Positions 43,868 through 61,343 of a DNA stretch of 61,343 nt are shown one piece after another. A program made the position numbers and the translations under genes. This DNA is from Candidatus Palauibacter polyketidifaciens (lineage in GTDB: Bacteria > Gemmatimonadota > Gemmatimonadetes > Palauibacterales > Palauibacteraceae). Location: the NCBI RefSeq assembly GCF_947581785.1, contig NZ_CANPVO010000001.1, positions 1 to 61,343 of the forward strand, read 5' to 3'. Under the pieces are notes generated by a model that was given only the letters and a program-made list of their open reading frames with translations, ran no database searches and had not been told where the DNA came from. The stretch's first letter is position 1. Every line of letters starts with the position of its first letter.

Positions 43868-44886
43868 AGCGGCCCGTGGGACGGACCCCGGTGCTCGCCG
43901 TCGCGTCGGTCGCCGCGGCGCTCCTCTCCTTCGGGTGCGGGGGAGAGGGCGGGGAACCGGGGGTCGTCGAACTCTCCCTTGGGCACGTCGGCTCTCCCGG
44001 CTCGCTCTACGACGTGACGGCCAACGAGTTCGCGCGCCGCGTGAACGAACGGCTCGCCGGCCGCGCCGAACTCCACGTCTACGGCGCGAGCCAGCTCGGC
44101 GGCGACGACGCGATGCTTCAGCGGCTGAGGCTCGGCACGCTCGACATGTCCATCCCCTCCACGATCATGTCCTCGATGGTCGACGCCTTCGGGCTGTTCG
44201 AGATGCCGTACCTCGTCCGCGACCGCGAGCACATGAAGCGGATCGAGGAGGCCGTCGTGTGGCCGGAACTGGCTCCGCGCGCGGAGGAGGGCGGTTACCG
44301 CGTCCTCGCGGTGTGGGAGAACGGGTTCCGTCACATCACGAACTCCCGCAGACCCATCCACGGGCCGGAGGACCTGAGCGGGATCAAGCTGCGCACGCCG
44401 CGCGGCGTGTGGCGCGTGAAGCTCTTCCAGGCGCTGGGCGCGAACCCGACGCCGATGCCCTTCTCCGAGGTGTTCGTCGCGCTCCAGACGGGGGTGATGG
44501 ACGGACAGGAGAACCCGCTCACGCAGGTGACGAGTTCCAAGCTGCACGAGGTGCAGGACTACCTCTCCCTCACCGGACACGTGTACAGCCCGGCCTTCGT
44601 CACGACGGGATCCGGGCCCTGGGAGCGTCACCCGGAGGACGTTCGCGCCGAGGTGGAGGCGATCGCGCGGGAGATGCAGACGTTCGTGTACGAGACGGCC
44701 GCGCGCATGGACGAGGAGTTGCTCGCCGAACTCGAGGCCACGGCGATGGAGATCAACGAGGCGGATCCGGCGCGCTTCGAGTCCGCCAGCGAGCCCGTGT
44801 ACGAGGAGTTCGCGGCGACCGTCGAAGGCGGACAGTCCCTCATCGACAGGGCGCGCGCGGCCGGAGCCCGGGAGGCCGGCTCGTAA
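43864..44886 (+). CDS. TRAP transporter substrate-binding protein (DctP family)
   Basis: A 340-residue lipoprotein (lipobox SFGC, Cys about 25) with the DctP fold: VELSLGHVGSPGSLYDVTANEFARRV at the start, then LGTLDMSIPSTI, RTPRGVWRVKLFQALGANPTPMPFSEVFVALQTGVMDGQENP. The Arg in LRTPR is the usual carboxylate-binding residue, so an organic acid is the likely ligand. ATG overlaps the aminotransferase stop (ATGA), which ties uptake to that enzyme. Confidence 0.92.
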   Translation: MKRPVGRTPVLAVASVAAALLSFGCGGEGGEPGVVELSLGHVGSPGSLYDVTANEFARRVNERLAGRAELHVYGASQLGGDDAMLQRLRLGTLDMSIPSTIMSSMVDAFGLFEMPYLVRDREHMKRIEEAVVWPELAPRAEEGGYRVLAVWENGFRHITNSRRPIHGPEDLSGIKLRTPRGVWRVKLFQALGANPTPMPFSEVFVALQTGVMDGQENPLTQVTSSKLHEVQDYLSLTGHVYSPAFVTTGSGPWERHPEDVRAEVEAIAREMQTFVYETAARMDEELLAELEATAMEINEADPARFESASEPVYEEFAATVEGGQSLIDRARAAGAREAGS

Positions 44887-44893
44887 CCGGGCC

Positions 44894-45433
44894 ATGGTGA
44901 AGACGGGAGTCCGGCGCTTCCTCGAGGGGGCGGTGCTCGTCCTCCTCGCGGCGCTCGCCATCGTTGTCGTCGTGGGAGTCGGGTTCCGGAAGGCGGGGGC
45001 GGCGCTCGTGTGGTACGACGAGGTCGCGTCGATCCTCCTCGCATGGCTCACCTACTACGGGGCCGCGCTCGCGGCGCTGCGCCGGGCGCACATCGGCGTG
45101 CCCACGCTGGTCGAGCGCCTCACGGGGCGCGCGCGGCTCGCCGTCGTGCTCGCGGCCGAGGGCGCCATCATCGCCTTCTTTGCCGCCGTCGCGTGGGCCG
45201 GCTGGCAGGTCGTCCGCGTGCTCGAGGGGACGACGCTCGTCAGCCTGCCGTCGGTGCCCGCGGCGCTGGCGCAGTCCGTGATCCCCATCGGGGCCGTCCT
45301 CTTCATCGTCGCACAGCTTCTGGGGCTGAGGGACGCGCTCTCCCCGGAGGACGCCCGCTCCGGGGAGACGGTCTCGGCCGGCGATGCGACCGGTGAGGCC
45401 GCCGGTGAGGCGATCGGGGAGGGGGAGCTATGA
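44894..45433 (+). CDS. TRAP transporter small permease (DctQ family)
   Basis: A 179-residue membrane protein with four helices; WYDEVASILLAWLTYYGAALA is typical for DctQ. It pairs with the large permease to move substrate delivered by the DctP protein, driven by a sodium gradient. The C-terminal tail holds a small repeated Gly-Glu-Ala segment that is probably disordered. It overlaps the large permease gene by 4 bases (ATGA). Confidence 0.9.
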   Translation: MVKTGVRRFLEGAVLVLLAALAIVVVVGVGFRKAGAALVWYDEVASILLAWLTYYGAALAALRRAHIGVPTLVERLTGRARLAVVLAAEGAIIAFFAAVAWAGWQVVRVLEGTTLVSLPSVPAALAQSVIPIGAVLFIVAQLLGLRDALSPEDARSGETVSAGDATGEAAGEAIGEGEL

Positions 45434-46713
45434 CCCTCCTCGTTCTCTTCGCCGGCCTGCTGCTCCTCATCGCCGTCGGCGTGCCGATCGCGGTCGCGCT
45501 CGGGATCGTCGCGCTCGTCGCCATAGCCGCCTCGGGCGGCGTCGCCATGCTCCCGAACGCCGGCCTCGTGCTGTTCGACGGGGCGACCTCGTTCCCGCTC
45601 ATCGCCATCCCGCTCTTCATCCTCGCGGGCGCGATCATGAACGCGACCGGGATCTCGCGCCGGCTCATCGCCTTCGCCTCCGCGATCGTCGGGTTCATCC
45701 GCGGCGGCCTCGCGATGGTCGGCATCTCCGCCTCGCTCTTCTTCGCCGAGATCTCGGGCTCCGCCGTGGCCGATGTCGCCGCGCTCGGCTCCATCCTCAT
45801 CCCCGCCATGAAGAAACGCGGCTACCGGACGCCCTTCGCCGCGGCCGTGACGTCCTCCTCGGCCACGCTCGCCGTCATCATCCCCCCGTCCATCCCCATG
45901 ATTCTGTACGGCGTCATGGCCGAGGCCTCGGTCGTCGAGCTGTTCGTCGCCGGCATTGTGCCCGGGGTGCTCGGCGGCCTGCTGCTGATGTTCGTGGCCT
46001 GGCTCTACGCCCGCCGCCACGACTTCCCCGTGGAGGGACGGTTCGAACTCCGCCGCGTTTGGACGACGGCGCGCGAGGCGGGGTGGGCGCTGCTCCTGCC
46101 CGCGATCATCCTCGGCGGGATCTTCAGCGGCTGGGTGACGGCGACGGAGGGAGCCGGGCTCGCCGTCGTCGCGTCGCTCGTCGTGGGCGGACTCATCTAT
46201 CGCGAACTCGACCTCGCTCACCTGCGCGAGGCGATGCTCGAGGGCGGGGTACAGACGGCCGTCGTCATGCTCCTCGTCGCGACCTCCGCCCTGCTCGGCG
46301 ACTACCTCACCGAACAGCGGCTCCCGCAGGCGGTCGCGGCCGGGATCATGGGGCTCACGGCGAACAAGTGGCTCATCCTCGCGCTGCTCAACGTCTTCTT
46401 CCTCGTCATCGGCCTCTTCCTGCACTCGGCCGCGGCCATCATCCTCGTCGTCCCCATCGTGATGCCGCTCGTGCGCGCGGCGGGGATCGACCCCGTGCAC
46501 TTCGGCCTCATCGTCACGCTCAACCTCGGCATCGGCCAGCAGACGCCGCCGGTGGCGAGCGTGCTCGTGACCGCCTGCTCCGTCGCCAAGGCGGACATCT
46601 GGGAGGTGAGCAAGGTCAACCTCCGCTTCGTCGCCGTCCTCGTCGCCGTCCTGCTCCTGGTGACGTACGTGCCCGCGATCCCCCTCGCCCTGGTCAACGT
46701 CCTCTACCACTGA
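45430..46713 (+). CDS. TRAP transporter large permease (DctM family)
   Basis: A 427-residue protein with about 12 membrane segments. FAEISGSAVADVAALGSILIPAMKKRGY and SSATLAVIIPPSIPMILYG are hallmark DctM sequences; NLGIGQQTPPVASVL closes the transport domain. With the two genes before it this forms a complete three-part TRAP system. The gene closes the unit; a weak hairpin lies 25 bases after the stop. Confidence 0.94.
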   Translation: MTLLVLFAGLLLLIAVGVPIAVALGIVALVAIAASGGVAMLPNAGLVLFDGATSFPLIAIPLFILAGAIMNATGISRRLIAFASAIVGFIRGGLAMVGISASLFFAEISGSAVADVAALGSILIPAMKKRGYRTPFAAAVTSSSATLAVIIPPSIPMILYGVMAEASVVELFVAGIVPGVLGGLLLMFVAWLYARRHDFPVEGRFELRRVWTTAREAGWALLLPAIILGGIFSGWVTATEGAGLAVVASLVVGGLIYRELDLAHLREAMLEGGVQTAVVMLLVATSALLGDYLTEQRLPQAVAAGIMGLTANKWLILALLNVFFLVIGLFLHSAAAIILVVPIVMPLVRAAGIDPVHFGLIVTLNLGIGQQTPPVASVLVTACSVAKADIWEVSKVNLRFVAVLVAVLLLVTYVPAIPLALVNVLYH

Positions 46714-46738
46714 TGTGACGCCGTGCTCACCGGCCGTA

Positions 46739-46762
46739 TCCCCGGGATCGCCTGATCGGGGA
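46739..46762 (+). terminator. Possible weak terminator after the TRAP operon
   Basis: Two stem parts, TCCCC with GGGGA and GATC with GATC, close a 4-base loop with a 2-base bulge. It lies soon after the dctM stop, but no T run follows. Confidence 0.35.
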
Positions 46763-46881
46763 GGAATCGGCGCATGAACGCGGGGTCCTCGCGTTCGGCG
46801 GCTCCGACGCGCGATGCGGCGCCGTCGTGATCTGGACGAAGCAGGGTGTGATGTAAGGTTTTTGAAGCCGGAGGCGTTTGT

Positions 46882-46989
46882 GTTACCGGGTGCGCCGTTT
46901 TCTGGCGCGCTTTCGGTAACGGACGACCGGGCTCAAAGGAGAAACACATGCGACCCGACCACTGCCGCGGCGTGATCCGTCTCGGTTAG
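46882..46989 (+). promoter_or_regulatory. Stem-loop followed by a 13-codon leader-like peptide
   Basis: An outer 7-bp stem (GTTACCG 46882-46888 with CGGTAAC 46914-46920) and an inner 5-bp stem (GCGCC with GGCGC) form a hairpin. Then AAAGGAG, a strong ribosome site, precedes ATG 46948 and a short frame MRPDHCRGVIRLG ending in TAG. The layout resembles a leader peptide or RNA switch, but I recognise no known class and no clear target gene follows closely. Confidence 0.4.
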
Positions 46990-47427
46990 ACCCGCGCGCA
47001 CGACGGCTCCCCGCGGAGCCCCGCGAAGCGTACGGCCGCCCTGCCCCGGCAACTCGGGGCAGGCCGCCGTCGCCCCACCCGGCGGCCGGTAAGCGCGCCC
47101 GGCACGTCGAGTTGGCACGCCGTCGTGAGGAGCGCCAACGGCAGCGAGCGCCGTCCAATTTTCGATGACGCTTTTTTAAGTTTCAACACTTATATCACAT
47201 TGTCATCACTACAGTTATCGATCAAAAAAACGTCGTTTACGGCCCTCTCCGTCGAGAAAAGCCGGATGGTCGCTCGCGAAGTTTTGCCCTCGGGAGGACC
47301 ATTAATTGTAGAGGGATGATTCACGCCGGCTCCATCGGTTCCGGCGCAGGGGCCCGACGACAAGGACGAAATCCTCCGTGGAAAGAGGCAAGAGGGCACG
47401 CCTGGTTGCGCGAGGTGGCGCGGTTTG

Positions 47428-47958
47428 ATGACCGCGGACCGGGAGCAGCAATTGTCGCGCAGGGCGGCGCGCGGCGATCGCCGAGCGCTGCACGCCCTGT
47501 ACGAGGAGTACTCGGGGCAGTTGTTCGCCGTTGCGTACCGCTTGACGGAGTCGTCCGCCGATGCTCGGGACGTGATGCACGGTGTCCTTGCCGACCTTCC
47601 CGAGATGTTCCGGCGCTTCGATGGCAAGCGGCCGCTGGGCCCCTAGCTTCGTTCCGTGACGGTTCACACCGCCCTCAGACACGTCCGGTCGGAGCGGAGG
47701 CGACAGGAGATCGCGATGGCCGCCGCGCCCGACGAGGAGGAGGTGATCGCCTCGCCGGAGTCCCGGATCCTGGATTCGATCGCGCTGGAACGCGCGCTGA
47801 CTTCGCTCGAGGAGGGGCTGCGGAGGGTCGTCGTTCTCAAGGAGCTGGAGGGGTATTCACACCGGGAGATCGCCGAGCTTCTCCAGATCGAGCGCGCGAC
47901 CTCGGAGGGGCGGTTGTACATGGCGCGGAAGCAGCTTCGCGCCAGGCTGTCGGAGTGA
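47428..47958 (+). pseudogene. ECF-type sigma factor interrupted by an in-frame amber codon
   Basis: The first 72 codons encode region 2 of an ECF sigma factor (RRALHALYEEYSGQLFAVAYRLT, then SSADARDVMHGVLADLPEMFRRF). A TAG at 47644-47646 follows GKRPLGP, and the same frame then continues without shift as LRSVTVHTALRHVRSERRR and region 4 (LEGYSHREIAELLQIERATSEGRL). The codon at the stop is where the family has Trp (W-L-R), so TGG to TAG is a simple explanation. Either the gene is broken, the stop is read through, or region 4 restarts at GTG 47656. The anti-sigma gene follows by 15 bases. Confidence 0.85.
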
Positions 47959-47973
47959 TAGGGGAGCTGAGAG

Positions 47974-50145
47974 ATGGAATCCTGCAAACATATCGATGAA
48001 TGGACGCTGAACCGCTACGCAGACGGGGAGTTGTCCGGACCGTCCGCCGCTGCCGTGCGGCAACACCTTCGTTCGTGCGCGATCTGTCGGCGCGAGGTCC
48101 GGCTCATTCGCGAGTTGAGTGCCGCACTCCGCGCCCTTCCCACGCCGAATCCACCTGATGGGTTGTTCGAAGAGATCTACCCGCAGGAAGCGGGCAGTGC
48201 CGCCGCGATCCCTTTCCCCGTTGCGGAGGCGCAGTCGGTTGCGTTCTCCCGACGCTTGGTTCTCTCGGGAGGGGCCTTCCTGATCGCAGGGATCGCGGCC
48301 GTCCTCGCATTGACGATCGGACCCGAGCGCGCCATGGCCGGTGCGAGCACCCTGCGGTTCCACCGAGAGGAGCCGGGCGCGCTCACGCTCCGGTACGAGA
48401 CGGTCTCGCCGCTGGCGGCGGAACCCGGCCTCCGGGCGCGGCTGCGATACTGGGTGCCCGACTCCCTCCGTTTCGCGCAGACCGAACCCGGATACCGCGT
48501 CGTCGAACTCTCCCGGGAGGACCCCGGCGTATTCTCCGGCGCGGTCGGTCTGCCCCCCGGCGCCGTGTACGCGGTCGCCGCCGTCGAACACCTGGACGGG
48601 AACTACATCGACAGCGACTTCGGCCGGTCCTGGGAGTATCTCAAGACGGACGCGGAAGGCCGAGCGACGCTGGACGCCCGCCTGTACCAGGTGCTGGCCA
48701 CCGCGGATTTGAGCCCCGCGAGGGCCGTCGAGGTGACCGGGCAGGCGCTGTCGGAGTACCCCGAGCGACCCGAGCTATGGGCAGCACTCCTCCTGTATGA
48801 GCGGGGTGCGCCGCTTGAGGACACCGGGGAGACCCCGCCGGGCGCGCACGGCGAGCGCCTTGAACGGATGGACGCGGCTGCACGGCTGAGGGCCCCCGGG
48901 CCGGGCGAAATGCATGCCTTGAGCCTCTACGCCCGCCTCCTCGGGCGGGAGGATATCGAGGCCTACTGGCGGAGCGAGTTGACCGCCGAACATCCCCGGC
49001 ACGAGTACGCGTCGCAGGCTCGCCTGAGGACGATCCTGCGGTCGTCCACGTCCCCTGCAGAAAAACTGGACGCGCTGGACCGGAGTTGGAGGCTCGCACC
49101 GATGCCCTCGGTTGCCCAGGTCGGGCTGCAGCTCGCCCAGGAGGTGTCCGATCCGGCCCTCACAAGGGTCTGGCTCGAAAGGTACGCATCCGACGCTGTG
49201 TTTCGAGATTCCCGGCTCGATGTCGAAGTGACGGAAGGCATGGCTGAGGTGCCCGCTCTTGGGGCGATCGCCGAGGAGTGGATCCTGCAACAGTTGAACG
49301 GGCAGCCGGACTGGCTCGGCCCGGATCGGCCGCTTGCCGGGACGCGAGCCAACTTCGAGGCGGAGGCCGCCGAGAGTCTGGCCCGCCTGCAGGTGCTCCT
49401 CGGACGGCTGCGGCTGACCCGAGGCGACCGGGCAGGGGCGTTCGATGCCTTCGAGCGCGCCGCCGAACTCAGCTGGAACCCCCGTGTCTTCGTGGAGTTA
49501 GCGAGATTCCACGCGGAGGCCGGGTCATCGACTCGCGCCGCCCAGTTGCTGGCGCTCGCGCAGGCGGACCCCGTCATCCCGCTCGAACCACACGTGCCTG
49601 AAGGAGAAGACTGGGCGATTGCACCGACGGAAGGCCGCTTGGCTGTAGCGCGCGCGGCGTGGCGGGAGCACCTGGCAGCGTCACTGCTCGCTGAGTGGGT
49701 CAACGGAAGCGCCCGTCTCGCGACTGCCTCCGGCAAAGAGAGCACGTTGCACGAGGCGACCGGCGGCGACGTGACCCTCGTGATCCACAGCCTGCAACCG
49801 AGCCTTGTCCCTTCCGAGAGCTTTGACCTGCTCGAGGCCAACGCCGCGAACCTTGGAGCGGAGGGCGCACAGATGTTGTTGGTCGCCGTCGAACCCGATC
49901 CCCCGAACGAGACTCAGACTGGCGCACCTGATCGCGCCGATTCGATCCCCCCCTTCCTCTACGACGGCCGATCCGAAGTCTGGGAAGCGCTAGGTGCTTG
50001 GAAGGGTGTTCAGTGCTTCGTTGTGGATGCCACTGGCATTCTGCGGTATCGCGGAGAAGATCTTGCAACGGCACTCCGCCTCACACTCATGCTGCGAGAT
50101 GGCTCGCTGTCGTCGTTAACCCAATTGAAAGGGAGCGAAAGATGA
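47974..50145 (+). CDS. Large zinc-finger anti-sigma-like membrane protein with TPR-like and thioredoxin-like parts
   Basis: A 723-residue protein. Residues 1-45 form an anti-sigma zinc finger (zf-HC2: His in QQHLRSC, then C-x2-C in SCAIC). One membrane helix lies near 90-108 (SGGAFLIAGIAAVLALTIG). A long, mostly helical periplasmic part with TPR-like stretches follows. The last 110 residues (VTLVIHSLQPSLVP, later VQCFVVDATGILRYRG) look like a thioredoxin/redoxin fold without the C-x-x-C pair. It probably controls the sigma factor encoded just upstream and senses something in the envelope. Its stop overlaps the next gene, a Cys-rich peptide (ATGA). Confidence 0.72.
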   Translation: MESCKHIDEWTLNRYADGELSGPSAAAVRQHLRSCAICRREVRLIRELSAALRALPTPNPPDGLFEEIYPQEAGSAAAIPFPVAEAQSVAFSRRLVLSGGAFLIAGIAAVLALTIGPERAMAGASTLRFHREEPGALTLRYETVSPLAAEPGLRARLRYWVPDSLRFAQTEPGYRVVELSREDPGVFSGAVGLPPGAVYAVAAVEHLDGNYIDSDFGRSWEYLKTDAEGRATLDARLYQVLATADLSPARAVEVTGQALSEYPERPELWAALLLYERGAPLEDTGETPPGAHGERLERMDAAARLRAPGPGEMHALSLYARLLGREDIEAYWRSELTAEHPRHEYASQARLRTILRSSTSPAEKLDALDRSWRLAPMPSVAQVGLQLAQEVSDPALTRVWLERYASDAVFRDSRLDVEVTEGMAEVPALGAIAEEWILQQLNGQPDWLGPDRPLAGTRANFEAEAAESLARLQVLLGRLRLTRGDRAGAFDAFERAAELSWNPRVFVELARFHAEAGSSTRAAQLLALAQADPVIPLEPHVPEGEDWAIAPTEGRLAVARAAWREHLAASLLAEWVNGSARLATASGKESTLHEATGGDVTLVIHSLQPSLVPSESFDLLEANAANLGAEGAQMLLVAVEPDPPNETQTGAPDRADSIPPFLYDGRSEVWEALGAWKGVQCFVVDATGILRYRGEDLATALRLTLMLRDGSLSSLTQLKGSER

Positions 50146-50348
50146 CCCTGAAGCGATTCGCCATGATCATTGCAGTCGCGCTGATCGCGGCCGCCGTTCC
50201 GGTCGCGGGAAAGGCAGATGGCTCCGCAGGATTGCGGTTGTCCACCGCGTCGTGTGCGGAGGCAGACTGCGGGAGCATATCGAAGGTGGATTGCATCTGT
50301 CCGGACATGCAGATGAACAATCGCAAGCCGCGCTGCGTTGAGCCCTGA
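50142..50348 (+). CDS. Small exported Cys-rich peptide
   Basis: A 68-residue protein with a clear signal peptide (residues 1-24, MTLKRFAMIIAVALIAAA then cut near VAGKA) and a short mature part with five Cys at 38, 43, 51, 53 and 65 (C-x4-C-x7-C-x-C-x11-C). No family recognised. Its ATG overlaps the stop of the anti-sigma-like gene, so it is probably translated with it, and the propeller lipoprotein gene follows by 10 bases. A GGGAGCG ribosome site precedes it. It is likely disulfide-bonded after export; its role is unknown. Confidence 0.7.
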   Translation: MTLKRFAMIIAVALIAAAVPVAGKADGSAGLRLSTASCAEADCGSISKVDCICPDMQMNNRKPRCVEP

Positions 50349-50358
50349 TCGAGTCGGA

Positions 50359-51414
50359 ATGAGGCGGTCGGTGATCGGGCTGGCGGTCGCGATCTTGGCG
50401 ATCGGCGCGTGTCGTCAGGCGGAACCGGCCGCGCTCGACACCGGCAGCCTTCCCGAGTTGACGCCGGAGGCCGTCTTCGCGGACGACTCGCTCGGCTGGA
50501 TCGTCGAGATCGCGTTGGCCGGAGACCGCGTGGTGGCGCTGGATGCGATGCTGGAGCCGTCGGTTCACGTCGTCGATCTCGAGACGCCGGGGCGCCTCGG
50601 TTCCTATGGCCGCCAGGGCGACGGGCCGGGCGAGTTCAAGGACCCGGAGCAGATCGTGATCGGGGCCGCGGAATCGCCCGACGAGGTCTGGATCCTCGAT
50701 GGCATCCATCAGCGCCTCACGCGGTTGTCCCTGCCGGAGATCGAAGCGGGGGCGGAAGTGAACCCGGAGACCGTCCCGCTGAACGGTCCGATCGCCGGAG
50801 CACTCGTGCGCGCTTCGGACGGGACGTGGTTCGCCGGCGGATGGATCACAGAGGGTCGTATCGGTCGCTACCACGCGAACCGGAGCTACGACCGCACCAT
50901 CCTGGGCTTCCCGCCCGAGGTGGCGGAGGCGCCGGGGACGACGCTCCCGCAGGCGTACGAGAGCTGGGTCGTGGCCGATCCCGCAGGGGACCGCCTGGCC
51001 GCCGCGACGCTCCTCGGCGGGCTGCTCGAGATCTTCGACCATGACGGCGTTCCGATCGCCCGGGCGGCGGTGCCCGACCCCTTCCAGCCCGCGTGGGCCC
51101 AGGGACAATCGAGCAGCGGGCGGGGCGTAATGGCCATCAGTCCGGAGACGCGTTACGGCTTCACGGACCTGGCCGCCACCCAACGCTACCTGTACGGCGT
51201 CTTCTCGGGACGGAGGGTGGATGAGGACGGGCCCGTCTGGGCGTCGCAGCAGGTGCAGGTCTACACCTGGGACGGCGCATACGTGAGGACGCTGCGCCTC
51301 GACCGGAGCGCGGAGGCCATCGCGATCGACGCCTCCGACACGTGGCTCTACGCGAGCGGACTCGAACCCACGCCGTGGATCGGCCGCTTCCGGCTCCCGG
51401 AGCTCACGCGATGA
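50359..51414 (+). CDS. 6-bladed beta-propeller lipoprotein
   Basis: A 351-residue protein with lipobox LAIGAC (Cys about 18) and the family mark SYGRQGDGPGEFKDPEQI, followed by blade-like repeats (VWILDGIHQRLTRLSL, TRLDRSAEA-type edges). It directly follows the Cys-rich peptide gene and overlaps the next small gene by 4 bases. A surface or periplasmic binding protein is likely; the ligand could be the peptide next door, which is inference. Confidence 0.78.
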   Translation: MRRSVIGLAVAILAIGACRQAEPAALDTGSLPELTPEAVFADDSLGWIVEIALAGDRVVALDAMLEPSVHVVDLETPGRLGSYGRQGDGPGEFKDPEQIVIGAAESPDEVWILDGIHQRLTRLSLPEIEAGAEVNPETVPLNGPIAGALVRASDGTWFAGGWITEGRIGRYHANRSYDRTILGFPPEVAEAPGTTLPQAYESWVVADPAGDRLAAATLLGGLLEIFDHDGVPIARAAVPDPFQPAWAQGQSSSGRGVMAISPETRYGFTDLAATQRYLYGVFSGRRVDEDGPVWASQQVQVYTWDGAYVRTLRLDRSAEAIAIDASDTWLYASGLEPTPWIGRFRLPELTR

Positions 51415-51710
51415 AGGCGGACATCTCCTACTCCGACTGGGTGGACTGGCTCGCGTTCGAGTTGGCCTTCGTCGAACTCTACAAGTCGGCGACTCCGTCT
51501 CAGCAGCAGGAGATGAGGGCGACCCTCCGCCGGCTCGTCAAAGGCATCGACGAAGCGGCAGTCGATGCCTTCGTATCGCAGGTCCCGAACTTCGAGCGGG
51601 CGCTCAGCTGTTACTCGTCCGAGGAACAGGCCGACTTCGTGCCTCAGTTCAAGACAGCCGTGACCGAATTCGCCCAGTGCTTGGCCAGCGTCGCCGGAAA
51701 ACGGGATTGA
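51411..51710 (+). CDS. Small hypothetical protein
   Basis: A 99-residue, mostly helical, soluble protein (MKADISYSDWVDWLAFELAFVEL, later VDAFVSQVPNFERALSCYSS). No signal peptide, membrane segment or known motif. ATG overlaps the propeller stop (ATGA), so it is part of the same unit as the anti-sigma gene, Cys-rich peptide and propeller. It ends at 51710. Confidence 0.6.
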   Translation: MKADISYSDWVDWLAFELAFVELYKSATPSQQQEMRATLRRLVKGIDEAAVDAFVSQVPNFERALSCYSSEEQADFVPQFKTAVTEFAQCLASVAGKRD

Positions 51711-51785
51711 AGCCGCCGTCGCCCCTGCCCCGGAGCCGCTACCACCCACCGTTGCAGCGACCTGGCAGGACAGGTGTGTGCACGC

Positions 51786-51950
51786 ATGGGTAAAGCTCGA
51801 GGCAACGCGCGCATCAGCCGGAGCTACACCCACCGCAACAGGCCGGTTGTCCGCACCGTTCTAGAGCTCGTCGACCGCCTCGGGCTCTCATCGTGTGAGG
51901 CAGAGATCACGCAGCGTGTCTTCGATGATCTTGGCGAGGCCGCGAGATGA
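51786..51950 (+). CDS. Short hypothetical protein (54 residues)
   Basis: An ATG frame of 54 codons, basic at the start (MGKARGNARISRSYTHRNRP) and helical after (VVRTVLELVDRLGL). Its TGA overlaps the ATG of the following receiver-like frame (ATGA), which supports it as a real coding unit. No family recognised; it could also be a remnant of a longer gene. Confidence 0.4.
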   Translation: MGKARGNARISRSYTHRNRPVVRTVLELVDRLGLSSCEAEITQRVFDDLGEAAR

Positions 51951-52290
51951 TTGGAGTTCTTACGGATTCCGCTCACGACGCCGCGCTCATCGAGCAAGCC
52001 GTTGGCGGCACGGCGCGGGTGGTCCACGGCTCCAAACAGTTCCCGAACGGCGACGGACCTTTCGAGTGTCTGGTCTTGGGTTGCCGCAGCCGACGTCTGA
52101 AAGAGATGACCGGGCTCTTGAAGGAACTGGAACGGACGATGCGTGGGTTCCCATCGTTCTCGTGACCGACCGCGACCCCGACGTTGCTCGCGGTTTGAGG
52201 GACGTCAGGGTGTCGGAAATCGTCTGGTTCGAAGATCTGGCTACCGGGCTCCAGCCCCGCGTCGACAAGGTGCTGGGCGCTGGACGTGCC
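51947..52290 (+). pseudogene. Receiver-like regulator gene broken by a frameshift
   Basis: The ATG frame reads MIGVLTDSAHDAALIEQAV, then FECLVLGCRSRRLKEMTGLL, like the first half of a response-regulator receiver fold, and stops at 52165. From about 52135 a second frame, one base back, carries on naturally: WVPIVLVTDRDPDVARGL, then VSEIVWFEDLATGLQPRV, the second half of such a fold. A one-base loss near 52130 explains both pieces. No DNA-binding domain is visible after it, so the gene is also probably truncated. Confidence 0.55.
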
Positions 52291-52416
52291 CGTGAGTCGG
52301 TCGACTCCGGCGGCCGCCGACCTTCACCCCGAGCATCTGCGGACCCACGCGGGCGCGGAACCGAAACGCTCGGTCCTGCGCCTCCAATCGAAACCCAAAG
52401 AACGGAGACATTATAC

Positions 52417-52568
52417 ATGATTGAGCCACTGCGATCAGATCTTGGGCAAGATGCAGACCCGAGGATCTCCCGGGTCCTGGCACATGCCAGATTTGTGAGG
52501 TAGCAAACGCGGATTGCTGGGTGCTGTTGTGTAACGGCGGCCCTATTCTCACAAACTGCGTGTTCTAG
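52417..52568 (+). other. Possible broken Cys-rich peptide gene
   Basis: A frame ending at 52568 reads TCQICEVANADC, then WVLLCNGGPILTNCVF: five Cys in 27 residues (C-x2-C-x6-C-x4-C-x8-C). It has no start codon of its own (stop at 52422-52424, no ATG or GTG after). An ATG at 52417 with a CGGAG site begins an overlapping 28-codon frame in a different phase. One indel could join them. It lies 80 bases before a propeller gene, like the intact Cys-rich peptide genes. This may also be chance. Confidence 0.3.
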
Positions 52569-54480
52569 CATTGGTCCTAAGTGTAGGATTGAGACTGAAG
52601 CGGATGTTGTCCGATAGAGGATGAAGTGAAAGGCGTCAGCGCTCCCGGGTGGACGTGAATTCTCAAGCAAACGAAAAGGAAGTCGGCAAAAAACCCGCGC
52701 GGAGAGGGGAGAGGGTTGTCGTGAAGGAAAAACTGAACGTCGTCGCGAACGTTGCAATCATTGTAACACTGTGCGTGCTGTTGCTTGGTCCGTCGGGGCC
52801 GGTCGGCGGTTGGATTGGTGACCGTTACGAGGAACGGAGCGTCAAACGCCGAATCGCGGAGCTGTGGGTAGAGTTGACGGACGCGGACAGCAAATTGGAG
52901 CCGCAATCGCCGGATGAGCGTAGGACGATAGTTGAGTTTGTGGATTACGAGTGCCCGTCGTGCAGATTGGTTTCGAGTGCGGTGTCGGAGGCAGTAGTTC
53001 GGGAGGGCGTGACCGTAGTTGTGCGGCACTTGCCCCTTGTGGGTCTTCACGCGACGGCACGTGATCGCGCCGTGGCGGCTGTGTGTGGAGAGCGAGTCGG
53101 GGCCTTTGGAGAGATTCACGGAGCCTTGATGGAAGAGCCCGTGTCGGTGGATAGCGAGCACTGGTCGGCGCTCGGCGACCGGTTGGGAGACGTAGCGGCG
53201 GCAGCTTTCCGTACGTGCGTGAGTGCGGATGCTGAAGGGCGGTTGAATGAAGATGGATACTTGGCCGCATCACTGGGCATAGCAGGTACTCCCACGTTTG
53301 TGACGCTTGGGGGCGTGTTCGTTGGGGCGGAGGGACTAGAGCGAGCCGTAAGGTCGCTACCGCCGCCGGAGACTGGGACGCGGCAGCAGGTAGAGATACG
53401 TGAGCCGTCTGAGCACTCAATGTTCGACTCGTTCCGGCACGGAAATACTTCGGTGTCGGAATTGGAGAAACTCAACACAGCGTTGTTCCTCAGCCCTGAG
53501 CGCATACTTATTGTGGACGAGGCGTGGCTCCAGTTCGTGGACCTTGGAACCGGCGATGTGGAGACGCAGGGGGGGGCTGGAGAGGGACCTGGGGAGTTTA
53601 GATCCATTTTTGATGTTCTGCGACGTCCCGATGGTGTAGTATTGCGAGATTTCGTGTTGGCTAGGCTCACGACATTCTCTACCGGAGGGGCACTGCTCGG
53701 CACGCGACGCTACGACGTGATGAAGTTCGAAAACATGCTGGTTCGACCAGTGGCAGCGTTCGTGGACGGCGCAGTAGTGTTTCGTGACACCCGGAACACC
53801 AGCGTGTGGGTGGAAGGTCGGTCTCGGGCCGCAGTGCGATACATCGAGTCGTCTGGTGACGAGCAGGTCAGGGTGATCGCACAGGAGATAGGCGATGAGA
53901 AGTACGGTTACAGATTAGCGGATGGGCGCAAGGGTACGACCGGGATACACTTCGGCCAGCGAGTCCTCGAGGGACGGATTGGCGAGAGACTCGTGGTTGC
54001 ACAGACGGATTCACCGACCGTACGGCTCTTGAACCGAGACGGGGCGGTGACGGGGAGAATCCCGTTACCGCGAGGGCTGGACGTGTCGGAGGACCATGTT
54101 CAACTGGCTCGACATGAGAGAATCGCCGAGAGGGAGCAGCGGTTCAACGCCCCGGAAATAAGGGAACGACTCGGTAGAACGGCAATGGCAAGTCGGGAAC
54201 ATCCAACCGTGCCAGCGAATGCGGTAACGCCAGGGGTTGATAAGCTCTTCGTGGATTTCGATGGTCGACTGTGGCTCCGTCTATTCGTAATGCCCGGCCA
54301 GGATGTCGTGCAATGGCAAGTGTGGGATGTCGCTAGTGCGCGTATGGAGTTCGTCGTGAGGCTTGCCCGGACGACGACCTTGCTCGATGCACAAGGGGAT
54401 CGTGTACTGCTTCATATGATGGACAGTTTTGGAGTGGACCGGGTCGTGATTCAGACGTTGGTTGCGGTGTGACGAGCACT
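52560..54480. other. Segment of visibly lower GC content
   Basis: Bases here use many A/T-ending codons and contain runs such as AAAAAACC, in contrast to the dcw region. By eye GC falls to the high fifties in percent. The segment matches the DsbA-propeller gene and its leader almost exactly, so it may have been acquired from another genome. Confidence 0.5.
52649..54472 (+). CDS. Membrane-anchored DsbA-like thioredoxin fused to a 6-bladed beta-propeller
   Basis: A 607-residue fusion. A short cytoplasmic part and one membrane helix (about 30-48) lead to a DsbA-like domain: IVEFVDYECPSC with the redox pair Cys102 and Cys105, RHLPLVGLHATARDRAVAAVCGE, and the cis-Pro loop GIAGTPTFV. From about residue 260 a propeller starts, with the family mark GGAGEGPGEFRSI. 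The domain order is typical of neither family alone. It likely makes or reshuffles disulfides in the periplasm, with the propeller giving substrate choice. Start GTG 52649; GTG 52655 is also possible. Confidence 0.8.
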   Translation: MDVNSQANEKEVGKKPARRGERVVVKEKLNVVANVAIIVTLCVLLLGPSGPVGGWIGDRYEERSVKRRIAELWVELTDADSKLEPQSPDERRTIVEFVDYECPSCRLVSSAVSEAVVREGVTVVVRHLPLVGLHATARDRAVAAVCGERVGAFGEIHGALMEEPVSVDSEHWSALGDRLGDVAAAAFRTCVSADAEGRLNEDGYLAASLGIAGTPTFVTLGGVFVGAEGLERAVRSLPPPETGTRQQVEIREPSEHSMFDSFRHGNTSVSELEKLNTALFLSPERILIVDEAWLQFVDLGTGDVETQGGAGEGPGEFRSIFDVLRRPDGVVLRDFVLARLTTFSTGGALLGTRRYDVMKFENMLVRPVAAFVDGAVVFRDTRNTSVWVEGRSRAAVRYIESSGDEQVRVIAQEIGDEKYGYRLADGRKGTTGIHFGQRVLEGRIGERLVVAQTDSPTVRLLNRDGAVTGRIPLPRGLDVSEDHVQLARHERIAEREQRFNAPEIRERLGRTAMASREHPTVPANAVTPGVDKLFVDFDGRLWLRLFVMPGQDVVQWQVWDVASARMEFVVRLARTTTLLDAQGDRVLLHMMDSFGVDRVVIQTLVAV

Positions 54481-54556
54481 TACCCGTTTAGGAATTACGA
54501 CAATCACGTGACACACGAGCTTCGCTGAATATCGTCGAATATGCCCCGCGGGAACG

Positions 54557-54958
54557 TCAGGCGTCAAGTAACCGGGCGCGGGGGAGGCTGGCCATCGCCT
54601 TGTCCAGGGTCAGGGTGTCGAGATCTGAATGCGCGTAGTCGTCGGCGATGAGCCGATCAGGCAGCCCCGCGCCGCTCGAGGCGTCCAGGAGCCTCATCAC
54701 CGAGAGCCCGTTCAAAGGTGCGACCAGGCCGCTGCCCAGCACCTGGATCAGGGCGGAACGAGCGGCGGGCTTCTGCACGCCGAAGTGGTGCTGGAGGGCG
54801 ACGTAGGCCTCGCCGATCACTTGATTGGAAACCACCACGGTGGTGCCGTCTCCGACCAGCGTCGTCAGGTGCCGCACCGTATGGGCGAACCGATCCCGGG
54901 GTCGGCCCGTGAGCAGGCGCACGAGGACGGATGTGTCAATCCCGTAGCGAAGGATCAT
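54557..54958 (-). CDS. vapC: VapC-family PIN-domain toxin
   Basis: A 133-residue PIN-domain ribonuclease. The acidic metal-site residues appear in YGIDTSVLVRLL (first Asp), NQVIGEAYVAL (Glu), DRLIADDYAH and DTLTLDKAM. VapC toxins cut specific RNAs, often tRNAs, and are held inactive by VapB. ATG 54958 is 22 bases inside the end of the antitoxin gene, the usual overlapping order antitoxin-toxin. Confidence 0.85.
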   Translation of the reverse strand: MILRYGIDTSVLVRLLTGRPRDRFAHTVRHLTTLVGDGTTVVVSNQVIGEAYVALQHHFGVQKPAARSALIQVLGSGLVAPLNGLSVMRLLDASSGAGLPDRLIADDYAHSDLDTLTLDKAMASLPRARLLDA

Positions 54959-55178
54959 GTCGCTGGGCGCGGAAGGCGTGAACGTCAAAGGGCGCGATGT
55001 CGGGGTCGATTTGCTCCCTTAGCGGGGCCAAACGCGACAGATCGATCTTGTGGGGTCGTATGACGAAGCCGTGGGGCCCCTCCAGCAGTTCGAGACGGTC
55101 GCCGGGTCGGACGCCCATGACGTCAAGGACATGCGCCGGAAACGTGACTTGTCGCTTCGCCGGTACCTTGACGAGCAT
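54936..55178 (-). CDS. vapB: AbrB-type (VapB) antitoxin
   Basis: An 80-residue AbrB/SpoVT-like DNA-binding protein: MLVKVPAKRQVTFPAHVLDVMGVRPGDRLELLEG is the swapped-hairpin domain, and the rest (LAPLREQIDPDIAPFDVHAFRA) should wrap VapC. A strong GGGAGG precedes ATG 55178. The N-terminal domain probably binds the perfect inverted repeat in its own promoter. A longer reading to 55292 would run through that promoter and is unlikely. Confidence 0.85.
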   Translation of the reverse strand: MLVKVPAKRQVTFPAHVLDVMGVRPGDRLELLEGPHGFVIRPHKIDLSRLAPLREQIDPDIAPFDVHAFRAQRHDPSLRD

Positions 55179-55205
55179 GGGTTGTCCTCCCTGGGCGGAC
55201 TCCGA

Positions 55206-55247
55206 CACCTTACGATAAAGCTTATTTTCGTAAGGTGATGCAGTCAA
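55206..55247 (-). promoter_or_regulatory. vapBC promoter with a perfect inverted-repeat operator
   Basis: On the + strand CACCTTACGA (55206-55215) and TCGTAAGGTG (55228-55237) are exact reverse complements 12 bases apart. On the - strand TTGACT (55247-55242), a 17-base spacer and TAAGCT (55224-55219) form a promoter whose -10 lies between the two half-sites. VapB-VapC binding here would shut off the operon, the usual conditional control of such pairs. Confidence 0.75.
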
Positions 55248-55403
55248 GCTCTCTGGGCGCGCTTTACGACCGTCGCCTTGAGGAAAGATCATCTCGGGGT
55301 TCGAGACAACGCGGATAGGAGGAGGGTCCCGTGGGAACTGAATTGAGTATCGGAGGATCGACTCTCCCGGTCGGCAGGCGTCGGTCCAGGGGGCGCGACG
55401 GAG

Positions 55404-56540
55404 GTGCGTCCCAGAGTTGCCGTATGGGTGAGTCTGCTGGGTTCGCTATGGGGCGGAGAGCTGGGGGGGCAGCTTCGCGACGGAATCGAAATCAGCAACG
55501 TGCCGTTGTTGGAGATCGGCGTTGCGGAGGGGGAAAACCCGTACCTGTTCAGCAAGATTTCGGGCGCGTTTCTGCTGGACGACGAACGCGTCGTCGTGTG
55601 CGACGGAGAGCTTGTGGAACTCCGTGTGTACGGACGAGATGGGAGTTTCCTGCACCGGGTAGGAGGGCGGGGGGAAGGTCCGGGTGAGTTCTTCCAGATA
55701 GATGCAGTTTGGCCAGTATCGGACGGGCGGATCGGCGTTTGGGATGCGGGGAACCTGCGCATATCTACGTTTTCGGCGGAAGGCGAACTCGTGAGCGCGG
55801 AGCGTGTGAAGATCGAGATGCAGGCGGGACGGCCGAGAAACCTGGAGCTCTTCCTCGGATCGTTCGACGACGACGATGTGATATTGGCCTCCGTGGAGGC
55901 AGGGCGCGCCTCAAGCGGTGTGGCTGCGGATCAATGGACACTGGGGCGCTTCAGCCTTGACGGTGATCCGCAGGGTCTCCTGGGGCAACTGCGCGGATTT
56001 CGAAGAATGGTCGGGTCGCCTTTGCCGTTCACGCCGATACCGTCTGTCGCGGTGCTTGGTGACACTGTATGGGCAGTGGACGGGTACGGGCCCGAGATAG
56101 GGCACCTGGACGCCGACGGGAACCTCCAGCCCGCCATCGCGGTACCGACAGTTGATCTCGAGACGGACGAAGCATGGTCACTTTTGAGGGAGGAACTACA
56201 AAGACGTGACGCCGGACTGTTTCTGCAGTTGATGGACCGACTACCGCCGCCGGATGAGATACCGCAGATCGGGGGTCTGCTTGTCGATAATGCCAGCCAG
56301 CTCTGGGTCAAGGTGTACGATCCGTCTGTCGACGCACTGTGGATCGGCGATCCTCTGCTCCCGGGCGCAGGCGGCGAATGGCGAGTCGTCGGCTCTGGCG
56401 GAGAAGCCAGGGGTGCGGTTCAGATGCCGGACGGCGTGACCCCACTTGCTATCACGGAGGACCGTCTCGTGGGGATCGCTCGCGGTGCCCTGGATGTGGA
56501 ACGGCTGGTCGTGCACCGTATCCGGCCCGGCGGAGGATAG
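55404..56540 (+). CDS. Exported 6-bladed beta-propeller protein
   Basis: A 378-residue protein with an N-terminal hydrophobic signal (VAVWVSLLGSLWGG) but no lipobox Cys. The family mark is RVGGRGEGPGEFFQI, followed by blades such as VSDGRIGVWDAGNLRISTF. No Cys-rich peptide gene is seen just before it. The GTG start has a modest site; a stronger GGAGGAGGG lies before GTG 55331 in another frame, so a lost N-terminal part or a leader peptide is possible. It is divergent from vapBC. Confidence 0.75.
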   Translation: MRPRVAVWVSLLGSLWGGELGGQLRDGIEISNVPLLEIGVAEGENPYLFSKISGAFLLDDERVVVCDGELVELRVYGRDGSFLHRVGGRGEGPGEFFQIDAVWPVSDGRIGVWDAGNLRISTFSAEGELVSAERVKIEMQAGRPRNLELFLGSFDDDDVILASVEAGRASSGVAADQWTLGRFSLDGDPQGLLGQLRGFRRMVGSPLPFTPIPSVAVLGDTVWAVDGYGPEIGHLDADGNLQPAIAVPTVDLETDEAWSLLREELQRRDAGLFLQLMDRLPPPDEIPQIGGLLVDNASQLWVKVYDPSVDALWIGDPLLPGAGGEWRVVGSGGEARGAVQMPDGVTPLAITEDRLVGIARGALDVERLVVHRIRPGGG

Positions 56541-56579: not shown

Positions 56580-57461
56580 CTAGAGATCGTATCTCAGGCT
56601 GAGCGTCACGGTGAAGGCGCTCGTGTCGCGTGTTTCCACGGTGTACACGATGCGGGAGCCGCGGCCCACGGTGGAGTCGTGGCTGCGGAGTTGGTCCCAC
56701 TCGCGAGGTTCGCTCTCGAACGGTCCGAGGGTCTTCGCGTAGCGTATTCGGGTTCCGACCGTGAAGCGGTCGGCGACGCGGTAGTCCACGCCCGCCAGCG
56801 CCTGGGCGCCGAACATGGTGTCGTGGAGCACCGCTGAGCCCAGCGTCGTTGTCCCGGCCAGCTTCGCGCGGAGCACCGGATCCTCGAACGTGCTGATCCG
56901 CACCGGATCGTTGTTGCGCTTCCACAGGCTGAAATAGTCGACGGCCATGCGCTGCACGCCGGCGCCGACCCCCAGGTACGGCGTCAGCCGCGCACCGCCG
57001 GTGGCGAGATCGACCGCGAGGTTCGCGAATGCGCCGTGTACGCTCACGTCGCCGGCGCCGCCGACCGCCCTCTCCAGCTCCTGGTCGGCCTTCTGCGCGG
57101 TCACCACGTCGCCGATCTCCGTCGGCGCGTAGTCGTGATACGGCGCGGCTCGGTACCGGTACTCGGCCTCGACCCGGAACCTGCCGAACCGGTATCCGGC
57201 CGCGATTCCCGTCGCCATCCCCCTCGTGCCGCCGGACTCGTTCGCCCATTCGGTCGGCGGCGGCGGGGTGTCGCACTCCGATCCCGCCTCCACCCCATCG
57301 GGGTTGATGAGCAGGTCGCAGCGCGTGCCCCAGTCGTTGTCTGTGCCGACAAGCCGCATGGCCGGAGCGAGCGTGAACCCTAACTCCGACCCGACGTACG
57401 GCTGCGCGGCGACCTCGCCCGCCGCCAAGCCGAGCGCCAGCGCGAAAACGGCTCCTCTCAT
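56580..57461 (-). CDS. Outer-membrane beta-barrel protein
   Basis: A 293-residue protein with a signal peptide (cut after AAGEVAAQ) and alternating beta-strands typical of OmpA-like or 'porin family' barrels: GYRFGRFRVEAEYRYRAAPYHDYAP, LTPYLGVGAGVQRMAVDYF, FTVTLSLRYDL ending in a hydrophobic residue. A loop with two Cys (TRCDLLINPDG to SECDTPPPP) could form a disulfide. Role unknown. It lies 27 bases downstream of the flotillin gene on the same strand. Confidence 0.8.
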   Translation of the reverse strand: MRGAVFALALGLAAGEVAAQPYVGSELGFTLAPAMRLVGTDNDWGTRCDLLINPDGVEAGSECDTPPPPTEWANESGGTRGMATGIAAGYRFGRFRVEAEYRYRAAPYHDYAPTEIGDVVTAQKADQELERAVGGAGDVSVHGAFANLAVDLATGGARLTPYLGVGAGVQRMAVDYFSLWKRNNDPVRISTFEDPVLRAKLAGTTTLGSAVLHDTMFGAQALAGVDYRVADRFTVGTRIRYAKTLGPFESEPREWDQLRSHDSTVGRGSRIVYTVETRDTSAFTVTLSLRYDL

Positions 57462-57488
57462 GGGTCGTCCCTCGTGTGAATTCGCGGG

Positions 57489-58814
57489 TCAGGCGGGCGG
57501 AAGCTCGGGGGCTGACGCCTCACCGCCGTCCGCGTCTCCTGAACCCACGGCGCGCTGCAGCACTTCCTGGATGTCAAGTCCCAGCACCGAGGCGAGTCCC
57601 TCCATCGTTCCGTAGGCGCCTCGCACCCGCTGGTTGAGAGCGTTGGACACGCCCTCTCCCTGGCCGCCGTCCATGACGACGACGCGGTCGATGTCCACGC
57701 CTTCCACCGCGCCGACGGCGATCTCGAGCAGTTCGGGGAGCTTCTCCGCCATGAACACGGCGAACGCGGCCTCGCCTCCGGTCTGGACCTCGGCGTAGAG
57801 CCGCTTCAGGACCTCGACCTGGGCCTTCCCGCGCTCCAGGATCGGCGCCGCCTCGGCCTCCGCCCGCGCGAACGCGGCCATCTTCTCGGCCTTGGCGGGC
57901 TCGATCACGTCCGCCCGCAGGCGCTGCTCCTCGCGCTCCACGCGCTTCATCTCGAGGATCTTCTCGGCCTCGACCTCGGCCTCCTGCGCCTTCACGCGCG
58001 CGATCTTCTCGGCCGTGTCGCCCTCGCGGTGCAGTTCGGCCTTGCGCACGCGCAGTTCGTTCTGGGCCTCGGCGACCTTGATCGAGGCCGCGGCCTCCCG
58101 CACCTCGGCGCGCCGCCTCGCCTCGGCCTGCGCCTCTCGCGTGTCGGCCTCCGCCTGGGCCTCGGCGATCTCCGCGGCCCGAATGGCCTCGGCCGACTTC
58201 TCCCGCCCGATCGCGTCCAGGTAGCCGCGTTCGTCGCTCACGTTCTGGATCTTGAGCACGTCGAGGTGGAAGCCGAGCGAGGCCAGATCCTCTCCCGCGT
58301 CCTCCGACAGCGCCTTGGCGAACCCCAGCCGGTCCTCGTTCACGGCTTCCGGCGTCAGCGTCGCGAGCACGCCCCGCAGGTTCCCGGTGAGCGTGTCCTG
58401 GGCGAGTTCCCGAACTTCCTCCTCCGTCTTCCCCAGCAGGCGCTCCACCGCGTTGTTGAACACCCACTCGGGCTCCGAGGCGATCTTCACGTTCGCGATC
58501 GCCTCCACGCTCAGCGGGATGTTCCCCTTCGAGAAGGCGTTGTTGACGAAGACCTCGATGGGGATGGTCTCGAGGTTCATGTGCTGGACCGTCTCGATGA
58601 TCGGGATCCGGAGGGTGCGTCCGCCCGAGATGGAGCGGTAGCCGACGGCCTGGCCATCGGTCAGCATGCGATTCCGGCCGGTGATCACGGCCGCACGGTT
58701 GGGGGGAACGATCACGATCAGGTTTTTGATCGTGATGATCGCCACGAGTACGACGACGAAGAAGACGCCCGCCATCACGACCGGGGCGGCCAGGAGATTC
58801 AGAAAGTCTTGCAT
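57489..58814 (-). CDS. Flotillin-like SPFH/band-7 protein
   Basis: A 441-residue protein with one N-terminal membrane helix (about 10-29), an SPFH domain (VPPNRAAVITGRN to NAFSKGNIPLSVEAIANVKI) and a long Glu/Ala-rich coiled coil (about 210-340) typical of flotillins (FloT/YuaG). Flotillins gather in ordered membrane patches and help membrane-bound complexes assemble. It is in the usual pair with an NfeD-like gene 7 bases upstream. Confidence 0.9.
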   Translation of the reverse strand: MQDFLNLLAAPVVMAGVFFVVVLVAIITIKNLIVIVPPNRAAVITGRNRMLTDGQAVGYRSISGGRTLRIPIIETVQHMNLETIPIEVFVNNAFSKGNIPLSVEAIANVKIASEPEWVFNNAVERLLGKTEEEVRELAQDTLTGNLRGVLATLTPEAVNEDRLGFAKALSEDAGEDLASLGFHLDVLKIQNVSDERGYLDAIGREKSAEAIRAAEIAEAQAEADTREAQAEARRRAEVREAAASIKVAEAQNELRVRKAELHREGDTAEKIARVKAQEAEVEAEKILEMKRVEREEQRLRADVIEPAKAEKMAAFARAEAEAAPILERGKAQVEVLKRLYAEVQTGGEAAFAVFMAEKLPELLEIAVGAVEGVDIDRVVVMDGGQGEGVSNALNQRVRGAYGTMEGLASVLGLDIQEVLQRAVGSGDADGGEASAPELPPA

Positions 58815-60551: not shown

Positions 60552-60800
60552 ATGAAGACGACGAAAGCGGGACGCTGGGTGCTACTTGGCTTCAACCTCG
60601 TGCTGGCCACGGCCATCCTGGCGCAACCCGGCCGGGCCGCGTCCGCGCGTGGCGGCGACGACTGCCTCGGGGACTGTTTCCAGGGATGGGGGGGATGCGT
60701 GCTGGACGGCGACTGGGGCTGCAACTACGAACTCAACGAATGCGTGCGGGGATGCTTCTTCCCCACGTGGGGTCCTTTTTCGGATCCCTATCTCCTCTGA
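60552..60800 (+). CDS. Small exported Cys-rich peptide with symmetric Cys spacing
   Basis: An 82-residue protein with a signal peptide (residues 1-30, cut near GRAASA) and a mature part with six Cys at 38, 42, 49, 57, 64 and 68. The spacing x3-x6-x7-x6-x3 is a mirror image around the centre, suggesting a paired-helix hairpin with disulfides; Trp and aromatic residues fill the gaps. ATG has a GGGAGGGG site. A propeller lipoprotein gene follows 10 bases later, as for the peptide at 50142. No family recognised. Confidence 0.7.
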   Translation: MKTTKAGRWVLLGFNLVLATAILAQPGRAASARGGDDCLGDCFQGWGGCVLDGDWGCNYELNECVRGCFFPTWGPFSDPYLL

Positions 60801-60810
60801 CGGAGAGCAC

Positions 60811-61343
60811 ATGAAGCTCGATGACACGGGGGCCGGCTCCCGGCCCCGTCACTGGATGGCACTCGCGGCGGCGCTGCTGGCCACCGCATGTCTGGACGGC
60901 GAGAACCCTGCCCCCACGGTCGATTCGGCAGAGCCGGGAGCGGACTTCGGAGCGGACCCCGCGCACCTTCGCGCGGGGCCGCCCCGCCTGAGGCTCGGAA
61001 GCGTGTCCGGGGAGGGGCAGACGGATTTCCATGACATCGCCGGCGTCGTGGTGGACCGGGCCGGCGGTGTGCTCGTCGTGGCGAACCGGGGCGATGCCAC
61101 GCTGCGCACGTTCGCGCTCGACGGGGAGTGGCGCGGCACCTGGGGCGGCGCGGGCGGCGGTCCGCGTGAACTGGGGGAACTGACGGCGCTCTTCCGATAC
61201 CGGGGCGATTCCGTTGTCGTATACGACGGTGAGCGGGGCGCCGCGTCCGTCTGGCCGTACGCCGGCGGGGAGGTGCGGCGCGTCTGGATGCCGATCCCTC
61301 CGGGGGACACCCTGCAATCCGCGCGACTGCAGGGTGCCATGGA
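60811..61343 (+). CDS. 6-bladed beta-propeller lipoprotein, cut off by the window end
   Basis: The frame is open for 177 codons to the right edge. It starts MKLDDTGAGSRPRHWMALAA and has lipobox LATAC (Cys about 27). GSVSGEGQTDFHDIAGVVVD and GGAGGGPRELGEL match the propeller genes in this window, with the family mark altered (PREL instead of PGEF). ATG has GGAGAG before it and lies 10 bases after the Cys-rich peptide gene. The 3' part is outside the window. Confidence 0.75.
   Translation, partial: MKLDDTGAGSRPRHWMALAAALLATACLDGENPAPTVDSAEPGADFGADPAHLRAGPPRLRLGSVSGEGQTDFHDIAGVVVDRAGGVLVVANRGDATLRTFALDGEWRGTWGGAGGGPRELGELTALFRYRGDSVVVYDGERGAASVWPYAGGEVRRVWMPIPPGDTLQSARLQGAM

Follow-up and report, generated by a model that had tools for sequence, protein, structure and literature searches.

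An exchanged hypervariable block of peptide and anti-sigma factor in an ECF sigma factor cassette of Candidatus Palauibacter

The DNA analysed here, referred to as the window, comprises 61,343 nucleotides from base 1 of contig NZ_CANPVO010000001.1 of Candidatus Palauibacter polyketidifaciens, which belongs to a MAG of 52 contigs; related records carry the names Candidatus Palauibacter, Gemmatimonadales bacterium and Gemmatimonadetes bacterium. Sponges, marine sediments and saline soils are known habitats of the order Palauibacterales, and the paper describing them makes no mention of sigma factors, quorum or propellers (PMC10469786). The features described below lie on the forward strand and centre on a cassette of four genes, encoding an ECF sigma factor (47428..47958), a membrane anti-sigma factor (47974..50145), a small exported peptide (50142..50348) and a six-bladed propeller lipoprotein (50359..51414).

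The two halves of the sigma factor match PF04542 and PF08281, so that sigma regions 2 and 4 are present and other sigma domains are absent, as the sequence-only reading of this DNA had stated in naming an ECF sigma factor. The gene is not intact, however, as codon 47644-47646 is an in-frame TAG in the window and TGG in all nine other copies. This TAG may be an inactivating change or an assembly error and, because the sigma gene carries a nonsense codon in this assembly, the window copy of the cassette may be switched off. Upstream of the gene lies a promoter-like conserved element, TTTGCCCTCGGGAGGACCATTAATTGTAGAGGG (47283..47315), to which sequence comparison points as a putative promoter. The same element precedes sigma genes in the genus, and a related core, TCG[AG]GCGGCAnnTA, precedes sigma genes in four other genera, a conservation that suggests autoregulation of the sigma operon. 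An element resembling that of the sigma operon is also found 5' of an AraC-type regulator gene in three genomes (L209-L211), and in two genomes (G100 and G011) genes for exported proteins that contain Cys and for propellers come after this regulator. Such an arrangement behind an AraC-type regulator occurs genus-wide (L209, L210 and L213-L217). Three loci (L123, L129 and L088) carry an inverted second copy of the CGAGCGGCA element farther upstream of the sigma gene, possibly a divergent promoter, and in G100 a 62-aa exported peptide with four Cys and a short protein lie 5' of the sigma gene of a second cassette (L039, 3550-4133).

The anti-sigma factor of 723 aa has an N-terminal zf-HC2 zinc finger (residues 12-39, 4.5e-8) and one predicted membrane helix at about residues 100-120 (100-115 in the model), which together with its position next to the sigma gene characterise an ECF sigma/ZAS pair. 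Its ectodomain comprises a beta domain, then a TPR superhelix at about residues 230-530 and a C-terminal, Cys-less peroxiredoxin/TlpA-like domain at about 571-711, all of these borders being approximate because the confidence of the AlphaFold model is modest (mean pLDDT 64). Foldseek and VIA-align retrieved TPR proteins and, for residues 571-711, peroxiredoxin/DsbE folds; in structure comparison the nearest folds to the C-terminal domain were Bcp and DsbE (Z about 10), and the relative L123 matches AhpC-TSA. The CxxC motif of a redox-active thioredoxin is absent from this domain in the alignment, and a PDB search for close sequence relatives gave chance matches only.

The peptide of 68 aa that follows was described in the sequence-only reading as translationally coupled to the anti-sigma factor. 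The two genes do share an ATGA overlap in the window (50142-50145), but such an overlap is present in only three of ten copies, the others having gaps of 17-30 bp at this junction. The peptide is a real gene, as it is conserved, its five Cys are invariant in the alignment and its mature part has a dN/dS of about 0.15. Ten bases separate it from the propeller gene (50348 to 50359), and the same distance, noted earlier for both intact peptides, was confirmed at the second (60800 to 60811). The propeller belongs to PF15869 TolB_like (4.5e-15; 56.2 bits against a cut-off of 29.2) and has a lipobox-like ...AIGAC at its N-terminus. Coupled to its gene is one for a 99-aa protein (51411..51710), retained 3' of the propeller in most copies of the genus, which gave no match in a Pfam search. 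In G010 (L019) the propeller gene runs in frame into part of a second propeller copy, a fused duplication. A search of plasmid records gave no propeller match, and the operon revealed neither a peptide-processing enzyme nor a site protease.

Beyond the 99-aa protein gene, the stretch up to the next propeller is degraded, as indicated by remnants of a LuxR-type regulator (51786-51950; intact homologue in L217, GerE) and an AraC-type regulator (51947-52165; intact homologue in L210, HTH_18). Downstream of these truncated genes, at 52425..52568, lies an open stretch with a Cys cluster, CQICEVANADCWVLLCNGGPILTNCVF, which had been put forward as a possible third, broken peptide. It has neither a start codon nor a signal peptide and lacks an informative homologue, being found elsewhere only in a nearly identical contig, and as a third peptide gene it was rejected. 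The homologous regulator in G100 has an intact Cys peptide behind it, and the stretch is at best a possible remnant of a third Cys peptide. There follows a gene encoding a membrane-anchored fusion of a DsbA-like domain with a propeller (52649..54472, with an alternative start at 52721), in which the DsbA-like domain noticed earlier was confirmed (PF01323, 6.8e-10, residues 93-232) and contains the CxxC motif CPSC. At 54557-55292 a PIN-domain gene adjoins an AbrB-like gene, probably a toxin-antitoxin pair of VapBC type, and at 55404..56540 another six-bladed propeller, of PF17170 type in Pfam, has no peptide in front. A second exported peptide (60552..60800; 82 aa, six Cys) is followed by a propeller lipoprotein gene cut by the end of the window (60811..61341). 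Homology between the two intact peptides was rejected, as no cross-match was found, and they therefore represent two peptide-propeller systems.

In most genomes of the genus that carry the second peptide, the gene order is peptide, propeller and DsbA-like gene, and in G001 a DsbA-like gene lies directly 3' of a peptide of this type. The order peptide-propeller-DsbA recurs in G048, and DsbA-peptide-propeller in G345. Gene neighbourhood thus supports the idea that dedicated DsbA-like proteins would oxidise such peptides. The earlier proposal assigned this oxidation to DsbA-like propeller fusions; the neighbourhoods of DsbA-like genes agree with oxidation by DsbA-like partners, but the fusion is no part of the sigma cassette in the other copies, and among the cassette copies examined it is whole only in the near-identical L016.

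The order sigma factor, anti-sigma factor, peptide, propeller is found in every one of ten copies from eight genomes of the genus. Contig C18 of the window's own genome carries a second, distant copy, whose anti-sigma factor and peptide are about 46-51% identical. Peptides of the first type were conserved between relatives (eight genomes of the genus), as were those of the second (12 of 40 relatives, all of them within the genus). When single sequences were used as queries, homologues of the cassette peptide were found in eight of the 100 relatives that were searched in addition to the genome list of the window, again within the genus only. Relatives of the anti-sigma factor are present in 15 of 138 genera sampled, with the same four genes in order in G018, G352, G019, G026 and a divergent copy of G003; in G028 the contig begins with the anti-sigma gene, and the genes of peptide and propeller follow. 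The peptides align over the signal region and three Cys (motif N-x-A-C...C...C), and a profile of the family finds members beyond its building set, several of them beside propellers. The pair of peptide and propeller also occurs without the sigma and anti-sigma genes (L122, L126, L127 and L133). Variants include three divergent Cys peptides arranged in tandem ahead of a single propeller in G263 (L180), which the family profile recovered, and a double-length peptide with two copies of the motif in G345 (L126).

An excess of Cys-rich peptides upstream of propeller genes had been predicted for related genomes. Outside the genus, with G003 counted in the set, an exported peptide with at least three Cys lies directly upstream of 11 of the 26 PF15869 propellers with enough upstream DNA, versus one of 103 control genes (Fisher P = 3e-8, a P value to be read as a guide because in some cases two of the 26 sites are propellers from a single locus), so that the association exceeds chance. 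The sole control match is a peptide already belonging to a propeller. The prediction had been framed for GPGEF propellers in general and failed in that form, as none of 19 propellers of PF17170 type has a peptide upstream, which makes the association specific to PF15869 propellers and those of the 60811 type.

No Pfam or NCBIfam model matched the cassette peptides beyond chance. NVEALA peptides (PF14055) of Bacteroidota are small, exported and Cys-containing and lie near PF15869 TolB_like propellers, a parallel that had been drawn earlier. It extends at most to arrangement, namely a small exported Cys-containing peptide with a PF15869 propeller as neighbour. Membership of the cassette peptides in this family was rejected, as the PF14055 profile gave no match to them, its cut-off was passed in none of 395 genomes and the control, Bacteroides ihuae, did match. 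The cassette propeller is itself a member of PF15869, and these Gemmatimonadota members are set in an operon with sigma factor, anti-sigma factor and peptide. Literature searches found no paper on NVEALA, the TolB-like six-bladed propeller or a propeller combined with an anti-sigma factor, and nothing fitting the combination of peptide, ECF sigma factor and pherotype.

Comparison of the copies gave a new result: the peptide and the C-terminal half of the anti-sigma factor form one hypervariable, exchanged block, delimited by pairwise identities and a peak in dS at about 48894..50379. For these comparisons the cassette was divided into a left block (sigma factor and N-terminal part of the anti-sigma factor), a middle block (48925-50345) and a right block (propeller). 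The window and L016, on contig C89 of G008, are 99.7% identical on the left, 79.9% in the middle and 98.4% on the right, whereas the window and L014 (G002) show the reverse pattern, with 84.3, 98.1 and 92.8% identity. The corresponding values are 95.7, 68.3 and 93.0% for the window and L020, 93.0, 77.8 and 91.4% for L014 and L019, and 95.7% (left) and 70.3% (middle) for L020 and L016. As L020/L016 and L014/L019 are mosaic too, the pattern depends neither on the pair of window and L016 nor on a possible chimera in the window assembly. Alleles of peptide and sensor ectodomain have thus been swapped between strains and species as one block. Contig C89 (L016 and L042) is nearly identical to window positions 44660-55353 and 56580-58000 and probably belongs to the window's own species, having been misbinned, because the region is missing from G100, a genome of the same species and the same metagenome series (SB0661), and the neighbouring SPFH-like gene has no further copy in G008; if so, the window and L016 alleles are conspecific.

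Among eight core alleles, mean dS reaches 0.76-1.0 over the thioredoxin-like domain and peptide, compared with mostly 0.2-0.4 in the sigma factor and the first 300 residues of the anti-sigma factor and 0.14-0.29 in the propeller (0.29 first, then about 0.2 or less). Three control genes at another locus in the same species, namely the unrelated 82-aa peptide, pep2 (0.26), prop4 (0.21) and an SDR gene (0.19), remain low, indicating that small exported peptides do not diverge fast by themselves. Since dN/dS also stays low (0.15 in the mature peptide and 0.31 in the thioredoxin-like domain), these appear to be functional, old alleles rather than products of decay. In an approximate Mantel test on these related alleles, of which there are only eight, all from MAGs, divergence of the mature peptide was correlated with that of the thioredoxin-like domain (r 0.85, P 0.0002) and the later TPRs (0.76), but not with the anti-sigma N-terminus, the sigma factor (-0.06) or the propeller (0.12). 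AU tests agree, in that neither the left nor the right tree is compatible with the data of the thioredoxin-like domain or of the peptide (P <= 1.4e-4) and propeller data do not reject the left tree; the coupling is strong and not perfect, as peptide data also reject the exact topology of the thioredoxin-like domain (AU P 0.0075). By eye, the residues after CICPDM fall into QERNR/MERNR and QMxN types that track the thioredoxin groups. Linkage of neighbouring peptide and thioredoxin-coding DNA is a confounder that gives some correlation, and the propeller, 10 bp from the peptide on its other side, provides an internal control for linkage and shows no such correlation.

The favoured explanation of the cassette is a peptide-sensing sigma switch in which the exported peptide would be the ligand of the anti-sigma ectodomain, a reading judged evenly poised between right and wrong. 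It is proposed because the pattern is pherotype-like, with conserved output flanks and a co-varying peptide and sensor, and because anti-sigma factors with protein ligands exist. The signal sequence would export the peptide, which would probably be oxidised outside the cytoplasm, and the mature peptide would bind the periplasmic C-terminal part of the anti-sigma factor, with its TPR and Cys-less thioredoxin-like domains. The peptide-bound anti-sigma factor would then release the ECF sigma factor, which would activate its own operon through the conserved element upstream, while the propeller lipoprotein may act as a co-factor or as a partner in surface display or uptake. Sensing by the sigma/anti-sigma pair had been suggested from the sequence-only reading, whose observations were largely right and whose interpretation is partly supported. 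The evidence supports a conserved system made up of exported Cys peptides, propeller lipoproteins and the sigma/anti-sigma pair; as for sensing, exchange and joint diversification of peptide and ectodomain favour it, with the peptide as putative ligand.

The best-known cases of peptide-based self/non-self signalling come from Gram-positive bacteria and involve histidine kinases. As in comQXPA and agr, a secreted peptide gene here adjoins the gene of a presumed membrane receptor, a role for which the anti-sigma factor is the candidate, and peptide and sensory domain are polymorphic together while the output part is conserved; in ComP, variability is likewise concentrated in the N-terminal domain that interacts with ComX (PMC4008528). 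The presumed receptor differs in being an anti-sigma factor with a TPR and thioredoxin-like ectodomain rather than part of a histidine kinase/response regulator system, and the cassette differs in its Gram-negative-type envelope, its Cys-rich peptide and its putative specificity. RsiV, the anti-sigma factor of SigV, binds lysozyme (PMC5014341), and the cassette would resemble this pair in that its membrane anti-sigma factor holds an ECF sigma factor and takes a protein as ligand through its ectodomain. Here, however, the presumed ligand is polymorphic and encoded in the same operon, and the ectodomain is of TPR and thioredoxin-like type. By analogy with peptide pherotypes, the cassette probably distinguishes self from non-self peptide.

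Other explanations account for parts of these data. The earlier view of an envelope redox or folding sentinel, in which the propeller binds a peptide oxidised by DsbA-like proteins and the anti-sigma factor monitors whether that peptide is oxidised or misfolded, draws on the DsbA-like genes that adjoin peptide-propeller pairs, the thioredoxin fold in the anti-sigma factor and the invariant Cys of the peptide. It is nevertheless considered unlikely, since the thioredoxin-like domain lacks CxxC, a DsbA gene is missing from the surroundings of most sigma cassettes and a general sentinel leaves the old, divergent alleles of peptide and ectodomain unexplained. Polymorphic antagonism, with the peptide as a narrow-range, bacteriocin-like toxin, the ectodomain and/or propeller conferring self-recognition or immunity, and competition maintaining diversity, would suit small exported Cys-rich peptides and block-wise polymorphism equally well, and the tandem peptides of L180 resemble an expanding arsenal. 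As the partner that covaries is no small immunity protein but a membrane anti-sigma factor associated with a sigma gene, and the mature peptide is under strong purifying selection, this too seems improbable and ranks behind the sentinel.

The peptide might instead be a mere subunit or ligand of the propeller lipoprotein, its co-diversity with the anti-sigma C-terminus then reflecting linkage or antigenic variation driven by phage or sponge host. Peptide-propeller pairs that lack the sigma and anti-sigma genes are compatible with this, but the propeller, with a mean identity of 92%, is conserved and shows no covariation with the peptide at a distance of 10 bp, and the explanation is held to be the least probable of these. 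In its most novel form, the peptide-sensing switch would represent, as a tentative suggestion somewhat more likely to fail than to hold, a new class of peptide communication in which a transmembrane anti-sigma factor directly senses a self-made, polymorphic, disulfide-type peptide and alleles are exchanged among sponge bacteria in the manner of pherotypes.

The exchanged block of peptide and ectodomain is the strongest new point of this analysis, and it allows the sensing hypothesis to be tested directly on naturally occurring pairs of alleles; the window with L014, L016 and L020, together with L017-L019, offers ready-made cognate and non-cognate pairs. This would give a testable role to a family of exported peptides that no Pfam or NCBIfam model matches, and to the adjoining propeller lipoproteins. 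Should the anti-sigma factor have the peptide as its ligand, the cassette would amount to a pherotype system based on an ECF sigma switch, in a phylum that has received little study and is common in sponges.
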